From Blattabacterium cuenoti (GTDB taxonomy: Bacteria; Bacteroidota; Bacteroidia; Flavobacteriales; Blattabacteriaceae), in assembly GCF_014251735.1 (NCBI RefSeq), contig NZ_CP059197.1, forward strand, positions 1 to 64,000: DNA of 64,000 nt, in the 5' to 3' direction. The notes beneath the pieces are model-generated. The model did no database searches, had not been told where the DNA came from, and was given only the letters and a program-made list of their open reading frames with translations. Shown here one piece after another: positions 1 to 44,591 of the stretch (position 1 is its first letter; each line of letters opens with the position of its first letter). The position numbers and the translations under genes are program-made.

Positions 1-1251
1 ATGGATAATGAAGCTTTAATAGATTCTTTTTCAGTTTTTAAAGATGAAAAAAACATAGATAGAGTAAGTCTAATGGCTATTTTAGAAGAATCCATACGAT
101 GTGTGTTAAGAAAGAAATACGATTCTTCTAAAAATTATGATATTATTGTAAATCCAGATCAAGGAGATTTAGAAATATGGAGAAATCGTATAGTGGTTCA
201 AGATGGCACGGTAAAAGATGTTAATAAGGAAATAGAATTATCTACAGCACGTCAAATAGAAATAGATTTTGAGATCGGAGAAGAAGTAACAGAAAAAGTA
301 GAACTTCAATCCCTTGGAAGAAGAGCTATTTTATCTCTGAGACAGAACTTGCTTTCAAAAATAAATGAATACGATAATACCAATACATATAAAAAATTCA
401 AGAACAAAATTGGGGAAATTATTAATGTAGAAGTATATCACATTTTACCTAAGCAAATTATTATGAGAGATGAAGAACAAAATGAAATGGTTTTGCCTAA
501 ACAAGAACAAATTCCAAACGATTTTTTTCGCAAAGGAGATCCTGTTAGAGCATTAGTAAAAAGAGTGGATTGGAAAGACAATAAACCTTTAGCAATTCTT
601 ACTAGAAAAGATGATTCTTTTCTTGAAGAACTTTTTAAATTAGAGATACCAGAAGTATCTGAAGGTTTAATTACAGTAAAAAAAGTAGCACGCATTCCGG
701 GAGAAAAAGCTAAAGTTTCCGTGGAATCCTATGATGATCGGATAGATCCAGTTGGTGCTTGCGTAGGAATGAAAGGGTCTAGGATTCATCCTATTGTGAG
801 AGAATTAAAAAACGAAAATATAGACGTGATTAATTACACAACTAATATACAATTATATATAACCAGGGCGCTAAGTCCTGCTAAAGTTTCTATGATGGAA
901 GTGAATGAAGAACACAAATATGTAAATGTATATGTAAAATTGGAAGAAATATCTAAAGCAATTGGAAGGGGTGGACAAAACATTCGATTAGCTAGCCAAT
1001 TAACTGGATATAAAATACACATATTTAGAGATTTTCCTTATGAAGATGACGTAGAATTAACAGAGTTTTCTGATGAAATAGAACCGGAAGTTATTGAAAG
1101 ATTTCACAAAGTTGGTTTAAATACCGCAAAATCTGTTTTAAATTACAGAAATAACGATCTAAGTAAACGTACGAATCTTGAAGAAAAAGTTATAAATAAA
1201 GTGGTTTCAATTTTAAAAAAAGAATTTGAGGAGGAGATATATAATAATTAA
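1..1251 (+). CDS. nusA: Transcription termination/antitermination factor NusA
   Basis: NusA binds RNA polymerase and nascent RNA and modulates pausing, termination and antitermination. The 416-residue protein has the family layout: N-terminal RNAP-binding domain (about 1-130), S1 domain (about 135-200), then two KH domains. KH-type glycine loops are visible near residue 251 (VGACVGMKGSRI) and residue 320 (AIGRGGQNIRLA). The short acidic C-terminus without extra repeats is usual for Bacteroidetes NusA. The ATG is the first base of the window, so the promoter and any further upstream start cannot be judged, but the N-terminus looks complete. infB follows 37 bp downstream, the classic nusA-infB arrangement. 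Confidence 0.96.
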   Translation: MDNEALIDSFSVFKDEKNIDRVSLMAILEESIRCVLRKKYDSSKNYDIIVNPDQGDLEIWRNRIVVQDGTVKDVNKEIELSTARQIEIDFEIGEEVTEKVELQSLGRRAILSLRQNLLSKINEYDNTNTYKKFKNKIGEIINVEVYHILPKQIIMRDEEQNEMVLPKQEQIPNDFFRKGDPVRALVKRVDWKDNKPLAILTRKDDSFLEELFKLEIPEVSEGLITVKKVARIPGEKAKVSVESYDDRIDPVGACVGMKGSRIHPIVRELKNENIDVINYTTNIQLYITRALSPAKVSMMEVNEEHKYVNVYVKLEEISKAIGRGGQNIRLASQLTGYKIHIFRDFPYEDDVELTEFSDEIEPEVIERFHKVGLNTAKSVLNYRNNDLSKRTNLEEKVINKVVSILKKEFEEEIYNN

Positions 1252-1288
1252 ATGATTTTTTTTTACCTAAATTTTTATTTTTGTTCTT

Positions 1289-3961
1289 ATGACTGATAAA
1301 ATCAGATTAAAAACAGTACTAACTAAATTCAATATTTCTTTGCAAAGAGTCGTCAATTTTTTACAAAAAAAAGGAATTGAAATAGAAAATAATCCTAATG
1401 CAAAAATAGAAGAACAAGTATACAGATTTTTAGTTCGAGAATTTCAAACCTATAAAGAAATACGAGATGCTTCAGAAAAAGCTTTTTTGCAAAAAAGAAT
1501 AGAAAAAGAAAAAATAAAAGAAGAATTATTAAAATCAAAACATCCTCCTCAAATTATTCGTGCAAAATCAGAAAATTTAATTGGATTTAAAAAAATAGGA
1601 AAAATAGATATTGATACATTAGAAAATACATATGGAACAAAAGGATATGCTAAAGAAAAAAAAAAGGATAAAGAAAGAAAACCTTTTATAAAATCGATAA
1701 AAGAAAAGAACATCAAATATTTTGTAGATAAAAAAACAGAAAAATCCATTCAACATAAAGATAAACCTGAACACATAGATACTATTTACCAAAAACTAGA
1801 TGGAGTAATGTTAACAGGAGATAGGATTGATTTATCTCAATTTGAAAAAAAAAGAACAAAACAAGAAAATAACATTAAAAAAAAACGCAAAAGAATTAAA
1901 AAAGAAATTATTGTCGAGGATATTAAGAATACTTCTATGAGAAAAAAACAGGATAAAGATAGAAGAATTTCTTTTAAACATTCTTTCTATCCTGAGAATA
2001 ATAAAGTGGAAAAATCTAAAACTAAGAAAAATTTACAAAAATCAGGAATAACAGATGAACAAATTGAAAAACAAATTAAAGAAACTTTAGAAAAACTTTC
2101 CTCAAAAGGAATAAAATCAAAAGCTTCAAAAATTAGAAAAGAAAAACGTCAATCTAAAAAAGAAAAAAGGATTCTACAAAGTGAAATAGAAAATAAAAAA
2201 CAAGATAAGGTTCTTAAAGTAGCTGAATTTACCACCGTCAATGAATTAGCATCGATGATGAATGTCAATGCAACGGATGTGATTGTCTCCTGTATGTCTT
2301 TAGGCATTATGGTAACCATGAATCAACGATTGGATGCAGAGATACTAACATTAGTTGCAGATGAATTTGGATATAATGTAGAATTTGTTGGTTTAGACTT
2401 AGAAGAAGCAGTGCAAGATGATGATGATTTAGAAGAAAACCTAAAACCAAGACCTCCTATTATTACTGTAATGGGACATGTAGATCATGGAAAAACTTCT
2501 TTATTAGATTATATTAGAAATACTAATGTAATTGCTGGAGAAGCTGGTGGAATTACTCAACATATTGCCGCTTATAGTGTAGAATGTCCTAATCATCAAA
2601 GTATCACTTTTTTAGACACTCCAGGTCATGAAGCTTTTACAGCAATGCGTGCAAGAGGTGCACAGATCACAGACATAGCTATCATAGTCATTGCCGCTGA
2701 TGATCAAGTTATGCCTCAAACAAAAGAAGCTATTAGTCATGCTCAAGCAGCAAATGTTCCTATAATATTTGTCCTTAATAAAATAGATAAGATAAATTCA
2801 CAACCTGAAAAAATTCGAGAACAATTGGCTAATTTAAATTTTTTAGTTGAAGAATGGGGAGGAAAATATCCTTCCCAAGAAATATCCGCAAAATTAGGAA
2901 CAGGAGTGGATAAATTATTAGAAAAAGTTCTTTTAGTGGCTGAATTACTAGATTTAAAAGCAAATCCAAATAAACCTGCTGTAGGTACAGTAATAGAAGC
3001 TTCTTTAGATAAAGGAAGAGGTTATGTCACAACTATGCTTTTACAAGGTGGAACATTAAAATTGGGAGATTATGTATTAGCAGGAAGCCATCATGGAAAA
3101 GTAAAAAGTATTTTAGACGAACGGGGAAAATCCATTTCATTAGCAGGACCTTCTAAACCTATTACCATACTTGGATTAAATGGAGCTCCTACCGCTGGAG
3201 ATAAATTCAAAGTTTTTAAAGATGAAAAAGAAGCTAAACAAATTGCTTCCAGAAGAGAACAATTACAAAGAGAACAAAACATACGAGCTCAAAAGCATTT
3301 GACTTTAGATGAAATAGGTAGACGTATCGCATTAGGGGATTTTAAAGAACTAAAAATAATTCTTAAGGGTGATGTAGATGGATCCGTTGAAGCTCTAGCT
3401 GATGCACTTCAAAAATTGTCTATAAATACCATTATGGTAAATATTATATATAAAGGAGTTGGTCAAATAACAGAGTCTGATGTTTTATTAGCTAGTGCTT
3501 CTGATGCAATTATTATAGGATTTAATGTTCGTCCTAATCATGGAGCTAAAAATATAGCCAAAAAAGAGGATATAGAAATACGTACTTATTCAATTATATA
3601 TGATGTGATCAATGATATAAAAGAAGCAATGGATGGAATGCTATCTCCTGAGATAAGAGAAAAGATATTAGGAAATGCAGAAATAAGAGAAATATTTAAA
3701 ATTCCAAAAACTGGAACTATAGCTGGATGTATGGTAGTAGAAGGCAAATTATTACGTCAAGCAAAAGTAAGATTAATTAGGGAAGGGATTGTCATTCATA
3801 ATGGAGAGTTTACTTCTTTAAAACGTTTTAAAGAAGATGTGAAAGAAGTGTCTAAAGGATATGAATGTGGATTGGGAATCAAAGATTACCATAATCTTAG
3901 ACCTGGAGATCTTGTAGAAGCTTATGAAGAATTATTTACTAAAAATCATAAAAATAGTTGA
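1289..3961 (+). CDS. infB: Translation initiation factor IF-2
   Basis: IF-2 is the GTPase that places fMet-tRNA on the 30S subunit and promotes subunit joining. The 890 residues comprise an N-terminal IF2_N helix-turn module, a long Lys/Glu-rich linker (about residues 60-310), a second IF2_N-like segment (about 310-360), then the G domain. G1 (GHVDHGKT) lies near residue 395, followed by DTPGHEAF and NKID. Domains II to IV follow, ending with the initiator-tRNA binding beta-barrel. The highly charged linker contains many A runs typical of AT-rich symbionts but the frame stays open. It follows nusA and its stop codon is one base before the aspS start, so the three genes probably form one operon. 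Confidence 0.97.
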   Translation: MTDKIRLKTVLTKFNISLQRVVNFLQKKGIEIENNPNAKIEEQVYRFLVREFQTYKEIRDASEKAFLQKRIEKEKIKEELLKSKHPPQIIRAKSENLIGFKKIGKIDIDTLENTYGTKGYAKEKKKDKERKPFIKSIKEKNIKYFVDKKTEKSIQHKDKPEHIDTIYQKLDGVMLTGDRIDLSQFEKKRTKQENNIKKKRKRIKKEIIVEDIKNTSMRKKQDKDRRISFKHSFYPENNKVEKSKTKKNLQKSGITDEQIEKQIKETLEKLSSKGIKSKASKIRKEKRQSKKEKRILQSEIENKKQDKVLKVAEFTTVNELASMMNVNATDVIVSCMSLGIMVTMNQRLDAEILTLVADEFGYNVEFVGLDLEEAVQDDDDLEENLKPRPPIITVMGHVDHGKTSLLDYIRNTNVIAGEAGGITQHIAAYSVECPNHQSITFLDTPGHEAFTAMRARGAQITDIAIIVIAADDQVMPQTKEAISHAQAANVPIIFVLNKIDKINSQPEKIREQLANLNFLVEEWGGKYPSQEISAKLGTGVDKLLEKVLLVAELLDLKANPNKPAVGTVIEASLDKGRGYVTTMLLQGGTLKLGDYVLAGSHHGKVKSILDERGKSISLAGPSKPITILGLNGAPTAGDKFKVFKDEKEAKQIASRREQLQREQNIRAQKHLTLDEIGRRIALGDFKELKIILKGDVDGSVEALADALQKLSINTIMVNIIYKGVGQITESDVLLASASDAIIIGFNVRPNHGAKNIAKKEDIEIRTYSIIYDVINDIKEAMDGMLSPEIREKILGNAEIREIFKIPKTGTIAGCMVVEGKLLRQAKVRLIREGIVIHNGEFTSLKRFKEDVKEVSKGYECGLGIKDYHNLRPGDLVEAYEELFTKNHKNS

Positions 3962-3962
3962 T

Positions 3963-5687
3963 ATGCACTGTTATAGAACACATAATTGTGGAGAATTGTG
4001 TACAAATGATATTGGGAAAGAAGTAATTTTATCTGGATGGATTCAAAAAATAAGAAATTTAGGTTCTTTAATTTTTATAGATCTTAGAGATTTTTTTGGA
4101 ATTATACAACTTATTTTTTCAAAAAATAAAATCAATAAAATAGAATTAAAAAAAGAATTCGTCATTAAAGTTAGTGGAAAAGTAGTAAAAAGACAATCTA
4201 TAAATCAAAAGATCCCTACAGGAGAAATAGAAGTTTTAGTTTCTAGACTAGAAATATTAAATTCTTCTATTTCTCTTCCTTTTCTTATAGAAGATCAAAC
4301 AGATGGAGATGAAGAATGTCGGATGACATATAGATATCTTGATATTCGAAGAAATCCTATAAAAAATAATTTGATCCTTCGTCATGATATTTCTCTAGAA
4401 ATACGAAATTTTCTTTCTAAAAACGGATTTTTAGAAATAGAAACTCCTATATTGATAAATCAAACTCCGGAAGGAGCTAGAAGTTTTGTGGTTCCGTCTA
4501 GGATACATTCCGGAATGTTTTATGCATTACCTCAATCTCCTCAATTATTCAAACAATTATTGATGATAGGAGGAATAGATAAATATTTTCAAATAGCAAA
4601 ATGTTTTCGAGATGAAGATGCTCGTTCAGATCGTCAAATAGAATTTACGCAAATAGATTGTGAGATGGCTTTTGTAGATGTTCATGACATTTTGATTTTT
4701 TTTGAAAATTTTATCAAACATATATTTAAAAAAATAAAAAATATTGAATTAGAATCTTTTACATGCATTTCTCATTCCGATTCCATGAATCTGTACGGAA
4801 CAGATTCTCCTGATTTACGTTTCGGAATGGAATTTGTGAAACTCAATGATTGGGTACACAAAAAAGGAATTGAATTTTTCAAAAAAAAGGAATTAACAAT
4901 AGGAATAAACGTTCCAAAATGTAGTCATTATACATGTGATCAAATTCATTCAATTATAGAAGGTGTAAAAGAACCAAAAATAAACCATGAAGAAATATTT
5001 TGGATAAAATTCTTTACGGATAAGACAATACTTTCTTCAAAAAAATTATTAAGTCATGAAAATTTAATGAAACTTATAAAACATTTTAAAGCAAGACCTG
5101 GTGATTTACTGTTCATAATTTGTGGAATAGAAAGAAATACCAGAGCAAAATTAAGTAAATTGCGTATAGAAATGGCTCATCATTTAAATTTAAAAAATCC
5201 TAAAGTATTTAAACCTGTATGGATTATAAATTTACCGCTTTTGGAATGGGATGAAGAATCCAAACGATATAAATCTTTTCATCATCCTTTTACTAGTCCA
5301 ATAAAAGAGGATATTCATTTATTGGATAATAAAAATCCAGGATATATTCGCTCAAAATCCTACGAATTGATCATTAATGGAATGGAAATTGGAGGTGGTT
5401 CTATACGTATTCATAATAAAAACATACAGAATTCAATATTTAAACATTTGGGGTTTTCTATAAAAGACATAGAATCAGAATTTGGTTTTTTCACCAAAGC
5501 TTTTGAATATGGGACTCCTCCTCATGGAGGAATTGCCTTTGGATTAGATAGATTAATAGCTATTTTAGAAGGAAAAGAAAATATTAAAGATTTTATTGCA
5601 TTTCCAAAAAATAATTCTGGAAAAGATACAATGGTCAACACTCCTTATTTTTTAAAAAAGGAAAAATTAAAAGAATTACATTTATAA
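3963..5687 (+). CDS. aspS: Aspartyl-tRNA synthetase
   Basis: Class IIb synthetase that charges tRNA-Asp. The ATG at 3963 (MHCYRTHNCGEL) is chosen because it begins the OB-fold anticodon-binding domain and follows the infB stop by one base; a longer in-frame reading from 3924 overlaps infB and adds 13 non-conserved residues. The protein is 574 residues. Motif 2 (FRDEDARSDRQIEF) is near residue 214 and motif 3 (GIAFGLDRL) near residue 522, with the bacterial GAD insertion domain between. All class II catalytic arginines are present. It converges on ppa with only 3 bp between the stop codons. Whether it is discriminating or charges Asn too cannot be told from this window. Confidence 0.96.
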   Translation: MHCYRTHNCGELCTNDIGKEVILSGWIQKIRNLGSLIFIDLRDFFGIIQLIFSKNKINKIELKKEFVIKVSGKVVKRQSINQKIPTGEIEVLVSRLEILNSSISLPFLIEDQTDGDEECRMTYRYLDIRRNPIKNNLILRHDISLEIRNFLSKNGFLEIETPILINQTPEGARSFVVPSRIHSGMFYALPQSPQLFKQLLMIGGIDKYFQIAKCFRDEDARSDRQIEFTQIDCEMAFVDVHDILIFFENFIKHIFKKIKNIELESFTCISHSDSMNLYGTDSPDLRFGMEFVKLNDWVHKKGIEFFKKKELTIGINVPKCSHYTCDQIHSIIEGVKEPKINHEEIFWIKFFTDKTILSSKKLLSHENLMKLIKHFKARPGDLLFIICGIERNTRAKLSKLRIEMAHHLNLKNPKVFKPVWIINLPLLEWDEESKRYKSFHHPFTSPIKEDIHLLDNKNPGYIRSKSYELIINGMEIGGGSIRIHNKNIQNSIFKHLGFSIKDIESEFGFFTKAFEYGTPPHGGIAFGLDRLIAILEGKENIKDFIAFPKNNSGKDTMVNTPYFLKKEKLKELHL

Positions 5688-41657: not shown

Positions 41658-41675
41658 AAATTAGGAACCTAATTT
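41658..41675. repeat. Palindrome at the flippase start
   Basis: AAATTAGG, spacer AA, then CCTAATTT form perfect 8-bp arms ending on the first base of the TTG start codon. It may be an operator or block initiation as an mRNA hairpin; chance is possible. Confidence 0.45.
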
Positions 41676-43138
41676 TGATAAAAAAATTGAATTTGTACAA
41701 GAAATTAGTTATTCAAACTATAATCTATTTTATAGGATCCATTTTTCCCAAGATTATTAATTATGCTTTTTTAAAATTTTTTACAAAATCTTTAAGAAGA
41801 GAAGAATTTTCTCTTTATACAGATATGTATGCTCTATCTTTTATAGTCATAGGATTTCTTTCTTTTGGATTAGAAAATACCTATTTCAGATTTATATCTA
41901 AAAAAAACTATAACAATGAAGTCGTTTTTTCAACAGGGTTTATTGTCCAATTTTTGATAACTTCTTTCTTTTTAATACTTTCAGTTAATTCGATAAAATA
42001 TTTAGTTTCTATTGCTGGATATAACAATCATCCAGAATATTTTTTCATGTTTTTTTTAATTATATTTTTTGACACTATTTGCATTCTTCCTATGGCTTGG
42101 CTTCGTGCTAATGAAATGGCTTTAAAATACACGATGATAAATGTTATAAATATATTATTGCAATCCTCTATGATAATATATATGTTTTATTTTTACACTC
42201 CAAAAAAAACTTATTTTTCTTCTATTTTTGAGTTAGTTAACTCTTTTACAGATAAAACAGGATACATATTTTTTGCAAATATGATTTCATCTTTAAGTAA
42301 TTTTCTTTTAATTGCACCTATCATTTTTAAAAAAGTCACCATAAAAAAATTTAATAAAATTATTGCCAAAGAAATGTTAAATTATGGAATTCCAATTATG
42401 CTCGGAACTATGGCTTTTTCTATTAATGAAAATCTTGATAAAATTCTGATTAAAAGATGGCTTTCTGATGAAATAAACGGTGCATATTCTGCTTGTTACA
42501 AAATAGCGGCTTTTATGAGTTTATATATTCGTGCATTTCGATTAGGGATCGAACCTTTTTTTTTTAAAAAATCTGAAGATGCTGATGCAAAATATTTTTA
42601 CGAAAAAATTACCTATTTTTTTATCATCTTTGGTTTAATATTTTACGTATTAATATGTGGAAATCTTTCTATTATTATAGAATTTCTCATTGATAAAAAA
42701 TATCATCTCGCCATCTCTATTATTCCAATAGTAATGATGGGAAACCTATTTATAGGGATATATACAAATTTATCTATTTTCTACAAAATTATAGATAAAC
42801 CTATTATTGGAACTTATATCTCTTTAGTAGGAGTGTTAATCACCATTTTATTTAATATAGTGTTTATCATGATTCCTCATAGCAGTTTTATGATTCCTGC
42901 TTGGGGAACACTTGCTTCTTATGGAAGTATGGTTTTAGTTCTATATTTTTGGGGGAAAAAAAATTTTCTTAAATTTTGCAAAAAAACTTGGGAGATTGTC
43001 CTTCACTTATTATTTGCCCTTTTTTTAGTAGTATATATGGTTAATCATGAAAATAGAATAGAGATTAGCATTTTTTTACAGTTTTTGTATGTTATTATTG
43101 TCTTCTTATTCGAAAAAAATAATTTAAAAAATAAATAG
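41675..43138 (+). CDS. Polysaccharide flippase (Wzx/MATE-like membrane protein)
   Basis: Multispanning membrane protein of the polysaccharide-exporter superfamily that flips lipid-linked sugars. The 487 residues hold about 12-14 hydrophobic segments; GSIFPKIINYAFLKFFTKSL at the N-terminus and MLNYGIPIMLGTMAFSINEN in the middle are typical of Bacteroidetes lipopolysaccharide-biosynthesis flippases. The start is TTG at 41675; no ATG occurs before the first membrane segment. In free-living Flavobacteria the same gene precedes dut and a sugar-phosphate nucleotidyltransferase, and that order is kept here. Substrate unknown. Confidence 0.83.
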   Translation: MIKKLNLYKKLVIQTIIYFIGSIFPKIINYAFLKFFTKSLRREEFSLYTDMYALSFIVIGFLSFGLENTYFRFISKKNYNNEVVFSTGFIVQFLITSFFLILSVNSIKYLVSIAGYNNHPEYFFMFFLIIFFDTICILPMAWLRANEMALKYTMINVINILLQSSMIIYMFYFYTPKKTYFSSIFELVNSFTDKTGYIFFANMISSLSNFLLIAPIIFKKVTIKKFNKIIAKEMLNYGIPIMLGTMAFSINENLDKILIKRWLSDEINGAYSACYKIAAFMSLYIRAFRLGIEPFFFKKSEDADAKYFYEKITYFFIIFGLIFYVLICGNLSIIIEFLIDKKYHLAISIIPIVMMGNLFIGIYTNLSIFYKIIDKPIIGTYISLVGVLITILFNIVFIMIPHSSFMIPAWGTLASYGSMVLVLYFWGKKNFLKFCKKTWEIVLHLLFALFLVVYMVNHENRIEISIFLQFLYVIIVFLFEKNNLKNK

Positions 43139-43149
43139 AAAAATAAATT

Positions 43150-43551
43150 TTGCACAAAAAAAATAATCAATACTCATCCGTATTAGAAGCGAATGTTGAG
43201 AAATCCATATACATAAATTACTTAGAAAGAAAATTAATCCCAACGGGCCTTTATATTGAATTTTATAAACTTAAAAGAAAAAATTTTTTTATAAAAAAAA
43301 AATTAATAAATACTGGAACTATTTGTTTGATTCATTTTTCGGAAAAAAAAAAAAATCCGTCAAAAATGAATCTATATATAGAAATACAAATAGTTATAAT
43401 AAATATTTCTTTAAAATATATTCTCATTAAACCTTATCAAAAAATAGTGATAATGGAAATTTATCAAGAAAATGAAATAAAATGGAAAAAATGTTCCATT
43501 CTTAATGAAAGTATAAGAGGAGAGAATAGTTTTGGAAGTACCGGAATATAA
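43150..43551 (+). CDS. dut: Degenerate dUTPase-like protein, catalytic motifs lost
   Basis: An open 133-codon frame collinear with flavobacterial dUTPase. LERKLIPTGLYIEF corresponds to the LERxxVxTGLFIELP strand, YIEIQIVIINIS to YRGEIxVILINLS, PYQKIVIMEIYQ to the GERIAQMVI block, and RGENSFGSTGI to motif V. Motif I (AGxDL), motif II (RSGLA), the catalytic aspartate and tyrosine of motif III (GTID-DYRGE) and the GxRxAQ motif are altered or lost, so dUTP hydrolysis is unlikely. The frame opens with TTG; the first ATG is at residue 73. A run of 13 A lies at 43343-43355. Context (flippase upstream, nucleotidyltransferase downstream) supports dut ancestry. It may be a decaying gene or a non-enzymatic remnant. 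Confidence 0.7.
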   Translation: MHKKNNQYSSVLEANVEKSIYINYLERKLIPTGLYIEFYKLKRKNFFIKKKLINTGTICLIHFSEKKKNPSKMNLYIEIQIVIINISLKYILIKPYQKIVIMEIYQENEIKWKKCSILNESIRGENSFGSTGI

Positions 43552-43577
43552 ACTCACTTAACTTATTTCATTTGATT

Positions 43578-44591
43578 ATGAAAATCATAATTCCTATGGC
43601 CGGAGAAGGAACCCGTCTTCGTCCACATACTTTAAATACTCCTAAACCATTGATTCCTATTGTAGGAAAACCTATCTTGAAAAGATTAATAGAAAGTTTT
43701 TCTAGATTTATTGAAATTTGTTCGATAAAAGAAATAGTTTTCATTATAGGAAATATCGGAAAAAAAATAGAAAAACAATTAATAAAAATTTCTAATGATA
43801 TCGGACTCCCTGGAATCATATATTACCAGGAAAAACCACTAGGAACTGCCGACGCATTACTCAAGGCAAAAAAGTCTTTAAATGGACCTATCATTATTGC
43901 TTTTTCTGATACTTTATTTCACCATGAAAAATTTCGAATCGATACGGAAATAGATAATATCATTTGGACAAAAAGAGTTAAAAATCCTCACTTATTTGGA
44001 ATTGTCAAATGTGATTCTTCAGGTTTAATTACTCATTTTATGGAAAAACCAAAAAATAATGTATCTAATTTAGCTATTATAGGTATATATTATTTTAAAA
44101 ACAGTTCTCTTTTAGAACAAGAATTACAATATCTACTAGATCATAATATAAAAAATGAAAAAGAATACCAGTTGACATCTGCCCTAGAAAATATGAGAAA
44201 GAAAGGAAATACATTTGCTAGTAAAGAAGTTCAGGAATGGATGGATTTTGGAAATCCAAAAAAAATTATTTCTTCCAATTCTAAAATATTATCTATTGAA
44301 TCCAAAAAAGAAGAATTAATTCACAAAAAAGCAATTATAAAAAATAGTGTAATAATCAAACCTTGTTTTATCGGAGAGAATACTACTATTGAAAATAGTG
44401 TCATTGGTCCTTATGTATCAATAGGAAAATTTACAAAAATAAAAAATAGTAATATTGAAAAGTCAATTATTCAAGATCATACAAAAATTACATATGCAAA
44501 TATTTATAATTCTATGATTGGAAATCACACCTATTATATAGGAAAAACAAAAGAAGTTAATTTAGGAGATTATTCTATTTTAAATTTTTAG
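43578..44591 (+). CDS. Sugar-1-phosphate nucleotidyltransferase
   Basis: NDP-sugar pyrophosphorylase of the RmlA/ManC-like type. The N-terminal IIPMAGEGTRLRPHTLNTPKP carries the nucleotide-binding GxGTRLRP loop and catalytic lysine. The transferase domain spans about 1-235 and a left-handed beta-helix (hexapeptide-like) region about 245-337, with VIIKPCFIGENTTIENSVIG. Activity (glucose-1-P thymidylyl or mannose-1-P guanylyl transfer) cannot be separated by eye. ATG at 43578 is preferred over a TTG two codons earlier. It follows the flippase and dut-like gene. Confidence 0.88.
   Translation: MKIIIPMAGEGTRLRPHTLNTPKPLIPIVGKPILKRLIESFSRFIEICSIKEIVFIIGNIGKKIEKQLIKISNDIGLPGIIYYQEKPLGTADALLKAKKSLNGPIIIAFSDTLFHHEKFRIDTEIDNIIWTKRVKNPHLFGIVKCDSSGLITHFMEKPKNNVSNLAIIGIYYFKNSSLLEQELQYLLDHNIKNEKEYQLTSALENMRKKGNTFASKEVQEWMDFGNPKKIISSNSKILSIESKKEELIHKKAIIKNSVIIKPCFIGENTTIENSVIGPYVSIGKFTKIKNSNIEKSIIQDHTKITYANIYNSMIGNHTYYIGKTKEVNLGDYSILNF

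Follow-up and report, generated by a model that had tools for sequence, protein, structure and literature searches.

Trimeric dUTPases (Dut; PF00692, PRK00601) are homotrimers in which three subunits build each active site and the C-terminal arm is swapped, motif III being contributed by one subunit, motifs I, II and IV by the next and motif V usually by the third (PMC12524310). Removal of the arm reduces kcat approximately 720-fold (PMC4827122). In covalent hybrid trimers engineered from the human enzyme (WWN, WNN and WWS), one of which has an arm missing, the sites act independently, and trimers retaining one or two working sites, or lacking one arm, display proportional activity (PMC4827122); asymmetric trimers of this kind are paralleled by the three-domain dUTPase of Drosophila virilis. 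The monomeric dUTPase of herpesviruses arose by duplication followed by complementary motif loss, leaving a single active site (PMC12524310, PMC9927489), while bovine immunodeficiency virus still requires a dUTPase-related protein that has lost catalytic competence (PMC4261571).

The current study concerns a reduced dut in the endosymbiont Blattabacterium cuenoti, located in a window comprising the whole stretch of 64,000 nucleotides that was analysed (positions 1 to 64,000 of NZ_CP059197.1). The 133-codon frame (43150..43551, plus strand, TTG start) is a putative motif V, or 'arm', subunit; it begins 11 nt after the stop of a polysaccharide flippase gene (41675..43138, plus strand) and ends 20 nt before the start of an RmlA-like sugar nucleotidyltransferase gene (43572..44591, plus strand). 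Free-living Flavobacteriales carry a full-length dut at the matching site in the order flippase-dut-RmlA-like: across 20 outgroup loci tested, the flippase gene adjoins dut in all 20 and the RmlA-like gene lies 3' of it in 15. Since the free-living relatives have a full-length gene at this place, 43150..43551 corresponds to the original dut of the lineage, and each of the 49 Blattabacterium genomes has the reduced gene at this position. The window protein matches NCBIfam PRK00601 (dut) with an E-value of 4e-10, yet under the curated cut-off of that family, and phmmer aligns residues 14–133 to the Rickettsia prowazekii dUTPase 7n56 (E 5e-7). The profile search against PF00692 that the earlier note had proposed did return a match, in the C-terminal half, but one that falls below the cut-off of 22 (13.2 bits, E 0.077). 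Judged from these alignments the dUTPase homology claimed in that note is genuine, and synteny confirms the orthology; no alternative frame at this locus holds all of the motifs intact.

Alignment with plasmid-borne and flavobacterial dUTPases revealed that the catalytic residues of motifs I–IV, which had been described as altered, are indeed lost from the window copy (all positions plus strand). Former motif I (43174..43194; canonically A-G-x-D-L-x-A) now reads S-S-V-L-E-A-N, with the Asp replaced by Val11, and former motif II (43291..43305; P-R-S-G-L) reads I-K-K-K-L, Lys49-Lys50-Lys51 standing in place of Arg-Ser-Gly. Motif III is lost as such: in the corresponding region (43354..43383; G-T-I-D-x-D-Y-R-G-E) the catalytic Asp and Tyr are gone and the final Glu alone remains. 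Former motif IV (43435..43452; G-[DE]-R-I-A-Q) has become Y-Q-K-I-V-I, in which Tyr96, Val100 and Ile101 replace Gly, Ala and Gln. The frame ends in RGENSFGSTGI. Motif V (43516..43545; R-G-E-N-S-F-G-S-T-G), a P-loop-like element with phosphate-binding and Phe-lid residues, had been correctly recognised as retained; it is fully rather than 'almost' intact. The same division is observed throughout the genus. The motif V Arg, Phe, Gly, Ser and last Gly are present in 49/49 chromosomal copies, as is Thr or Ser at its position, and the first Gly in 45/49, while the motif I Asp, the motif II Ser and Gly, the motif III Gly and the motif IV Gln are each found in 0/49 and the motif IV Gly in one. The few matches in the motif III columns (Asp in 2/49, Tyr in 4/49) probably reflect noise in the alignment, which is gapped there.

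The remainder of the protein may still adopt the family fold. When dUTPases were included in the alignment, the modelled structure attained a pLDDT of 79 and a pTM of 0.64, values that lean on those dUTPases, and every one of its top matches in the PDB was a dUTPase (Z as high as 9.0, rmsd 3.8 across 102 residues), with the same dependence; a model built from three Blattabacterium sequences alone reached a pLDDT of 34. Conserved non-catalytic positions (ERKLIxTG, an EIxxxxIN strand and KIKW) fit a retained scaffold.

A PF00692 search of the genus identified 12 genomes that possess a second dut, nine times on separate plasmids of 3–4 kb and three times on the chromosome (G016, G017 and G002), at approximately 139 kb and with the same neighbours as on the plasmid. 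By its gene content the copy at ~139 kb is an integrated plasmid; this gene set sits at about the same chromosomal place in all three genomes, and its dut is still arm-less. PLSDB holds 13 Blattabacterium plasmids with a gene annotated 'dut: dUTP diphosphatase'. The plasmid protein matches PF00692 with E-values down to 7e-29 and retains 15/15 scored motif I–IV positions in 12/12 copies; motif V is present in 0/12, and none of the frames beyond the 3' end of the plasmid gene encodes one. The chain stops 1–13 residues past a conserved K[VI][KE]W strand, at which point the chromosomal copy goes on into the arm; the BPLAN plasmid gene (protein WP_012821747.1), for example, encodes 130 residues and overlaps at its 3' end with a convergent DUF1599 gene. 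When a full-length dUTPase served as the query, 11 Blattabacterium plasmids among the matches listed end at query residue 122–127 of 144, whereas all other plasmids among those matches reach 142–144, and as a control the best non-Blattabacterium dUTPase matches of the order extend to profile position 128–129. Previous reports mention dut and nrdB as genes of the plasmid but do not remark on the truncation (PMC6039017, PMC7453276). A dCTP deaminase or DCD-DUT, which naturally lacks motif V, was considered as the identity of the plasmid protein and rejected (best E 3.5e-10 for PF22769 versus 7e-29 for PF00692); no other DCD was found among the 49 Blattabacterium genomes. The chromosomal dut copies form long branches in the phylogeny, which for this reason gave no decision between a duplication within Blattabacterium and an import as the origin of the plasmid copy. 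The plasmid recorded for the Blaberus giganteus strain (G044, NC_017925; dut at 763-1152) shares 96–97% DNA identity with Cryptocercus plasmids, and its Dut protein is identical to theirs, while the chromosomal dut and RmlA-like genes of G044 are of the other type; this likeness reflects either transfer between the symbionts of the two hosts or a mix-up of records.

The losses in the two genes are complementary: the 49 chromosomal copies keep motif V without the motif I–IV residues, and the 12 plasmid copies keep motifs I–IV without motif V. Because a trimeric dUTPase site draws motif III, motifs I/II/IV and motif V from three subunits, the two genes are exact complements. Taking these sequence comparisons together, we consider that the chromosomal frame probably encodes a subunit dedicated to supplying the arm of a hetero-oligomeric dUTPase, composed of two plasmid-encoded cores and one chromosomal arm donor. 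The data show the complementary loss, the synteny, the presence throughout the genus and purifying selection; co-assembly, the 2:1 stoichiometry and activity are what we infer from them. A duplicate or copy of the ancestral trimeric dUTPase gene would have reached the Blattabacterium plasmid, where it retained the catalytic body (motifs I–IV) and lost the C-terminal arm, while the chromosomal copy, relieved of catalysis, would have lost motifs I–IV and retained a dUTPase-like scaffold together with motif V. In the proposed trimer the pocket would lie at the core-core interface, with motif III from one core and motifs I, II and IV from the other, and would be closed by the chromosomal arm to give exactly one complete site per 2:1 trimer; a trimer of cores would have no arm and one of arm subunits no pocket. 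With reasonable, though not strong, confidence we extend this to the genus, whose dUTPase would be obligately hetero-oligomeric through duplication, degeneration and complementation over two replicons, with neither gene competent alone and with plasmid and chromosome tied together by each holding part of one active site. An arm-less core by itself could have residual activity.

The last point leads to the alternative that survives best, although we regard it as unlikely, namely that the plasmid core alone acts as a slow, arm-less dUTPase sufficient for a slowly dividing symbiont, and that the chromosomal protein serves a separate use, as a nucleotide-sensing regulator or scaffold whose P-loop-like tail binds phosphates. 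Arm loss lowers catalysis (the ~720-fold effect above, PMC4827122) without abolishing it, the bovine immunodeficiency virus protein (PMC4261571) is a precedent for a requirement for an inactive relative, and the chromosomal subunit evolves faster (omega 0.2–0.35) than the plasmid core (0.087). This alternative leaves unexplained, however, why the plasmid gene lost precisely the motif that the chromosome kept, and why none of the 12 cores bears an arm that is otherwise kept in the order. A considerably more doubtful suggestion is that the chromosomal protein inhibits or titrates the plasmid dUTPase instead of completing it. It would engage the same partners through the same interfaces as the arm subunit that we favour, and a dead paralog within the trimer would remove functional sites; a pure inhibitor, though, would have no need of an invariant catalytic Arg, Phe and Gly-rich arm, and the core would remain arm-less.

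A decaying pseudogene, with motif V surviving by chance, is a highly improbable reading of the chromosomal frame. The loss of motifs I–IV might be read in this way, as might the breaks in the frame in 4/49 genomes (G001, G020, G032 and G045), all in or near poly-A tracts and upstream of the C-terminal block. Against this, the frame is uninterrupted in 45/49 of these AT-rich genomes and the C-terminal block stays open in all 49. The codon model yielded an omega of 0.21 for the whole gene (lnL -9231 versus -9551 at omega = 1, a gap of ~320 log-likelihood units relative to a null in which kappa was also fixed), while values by segment were 0.24 and 0.35. For the arm (15 codons) omega was 0.20 and for motif V ~0.18, both from an MG model with kappa fixed, which is simpler than the GY codon model that did not converge on so short a segment. 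Mean identity across the 49 genomes is 98% at the canonical motif V positions versus 63% over the rest of the frame, and the conservation of motif V, as measured in this alignment, is above chance. The chromosomal dut thus shows a substitution pattern that is not one of free decay, and pseudogene decay was rejected on dN/dS and genus-wide conservation. Of the two possibilities raised in the earlier note, a dead gene early in decay is contradicted by the C-terminal block open in every genome and by a dN/dS of about 0.2, whereas a remnant with another use pointed in the right direction.

The N-terminal half is separated in the four frameshifted genomes, and assembly there would need slippage or the C-terminal fragment. 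The window frame contains an A13 homopolymer (43343..43355, plus strand), which is a possible site of polymerase slippage; in the close relatives G020 and G045 the break lies in or near the matching tract. Least credible of all is that the 3' end is kept as DNA, as a promoter or ribosome-binding site of the RmlA-like gene 20 nt downstream, since the codons of the invariant residues, which are exactly those of the outgroup motif V, vary synonymously (GGA/GGT/GGG/GGC, AGT/AGC, ACT/ACC/ACA, TTT/TTC), which places the constraint on the protein; a DNA-level explanation was rejected on this ground.

With regard to other means of dUTP handling, no further dUTPase or DCD was found on the chromosome of the window's genome, and no second complete dUTPase or separate DCD across the Blattabacterium genomes. 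The genome does encode a uracil-DNA glycosylase (506885-507373, minus strand) and a MazG-domain protein, so that the genome-wide search suggested previously was positive for a MazG-like protein and for ung and negative for a second chromosomal dUTPase. To our knowledge MazG proteins are not specific dUTPases, and for this reason the MazG-domain protein was rejected as a substitute. The suggestion that dUTP is left unhandled and that uracil enters the DNA is not borne out: because the genus possesses a plasmid dut with motifs I–IV and the window's genome a uracil-DNA glycosylase, unchecked uracil incorporation is not required by the data. The ung gene is found in 37/49 genomes and is split by frameshifts in several.

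The assembly of the window's strain consists of a single chromosome, from which the plasmid is absent. Chromosome-only assemblies of Blattabacterium are often without the plasmid. The Bge genome, for instance, was first published without its plasmid (PMC2768785), which is now on record as NC_015679, and for the Diploptera strain the plasmid sequence was excised from the contig (PMC7453276). The gene for the ribonucleotide reductase beta subunit, nrdB, which is the second enzyme gene of the plasmid, occurs only in assemblies with the plasmid or its integrated form, and the close relatives from Blatta orientalis (G045) and Periplaneta americana possess the plasmid. Given the frequent omission of the plasmid from such assemblies, the tracking of the plasmid by nrdB and its presence in close relatives, a plasmid is expected in the window's strain, and the pairing proposed for this strain is drawn from those relatives. 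The partner gene nrdA is chromosomal in 41/49 genomes, a count in which the window's genome reads N over a 5000-base stretch at that place; with nrdA on the chromosome and nrdB on the plasmid, ribonucleotide reductase is a second enzyme with subunits on two replicons. In G003 (positions 760-4503 of locus L168) a perfect 2001-bp tandem duplication includes nrdA, and in G028 and G037, near 353-357 kb, nrdA matches are spaced by the same 2001 bp; that three genomes agree in this length suggests an artefact in the stored sequences.

Should the split dUTPase be real, it would be a clear example from nature of how a homotrimer turns into a hetero-oligomer by complementary loss, with its parts on different replicons of a strongly reduced genome, and it would explain the persistence, or chromosomal absorption, of a 3–4 kb nrdB and dut plasmid across the genus. 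The annotation of the plasmid gene, currently called a complete dUTP diphosphatase, would need correction, and 'dead' genes of endosymbionts might prove to be essential partial subunits. The evolution of heteromers would become testable through the co-expression of two short proteins.

No report of a dUTPase with its motifs divided over two genes on two replicons was found in the open-access papers searched, and the described systems each share part of the proposed arrangement. As in the homotrimeric dUTPases, the ancestral gene occupies the same syntenic place, and according to the model that draws on dUTPases in its alignment the window protein may take the same jelly-roll fold; each subunit of those enzymes, however, has the full set of five motifs, whereas in Blattabacterium motifs I–IV and motif V belong to two genes on two replicons. 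The bovine immunodeficiency virus protein resembles the chromosomal subunit as a relative that would be needed despite its catalytic incompetence, but it is a short protein of a virus, for which no partner is known and which is not paired with an arm-less core. The asymmetric trimers of D. virilis and of the human hybrids are single-chain or engineered proteins, unlike a natural pair of separately encoded, incomplete subunits. The herpesvirus enzyme shares with the proposed Blattabacterium dUTPase the sequence of duplication, complementary motif loss and one remaining site, but there the two copies form a single fused chain and divide motif III from motifs I, II, IV and V, while in Blattabacterium separate genes on a chromosome and a plasmid divide motifs I–IV from motif V.
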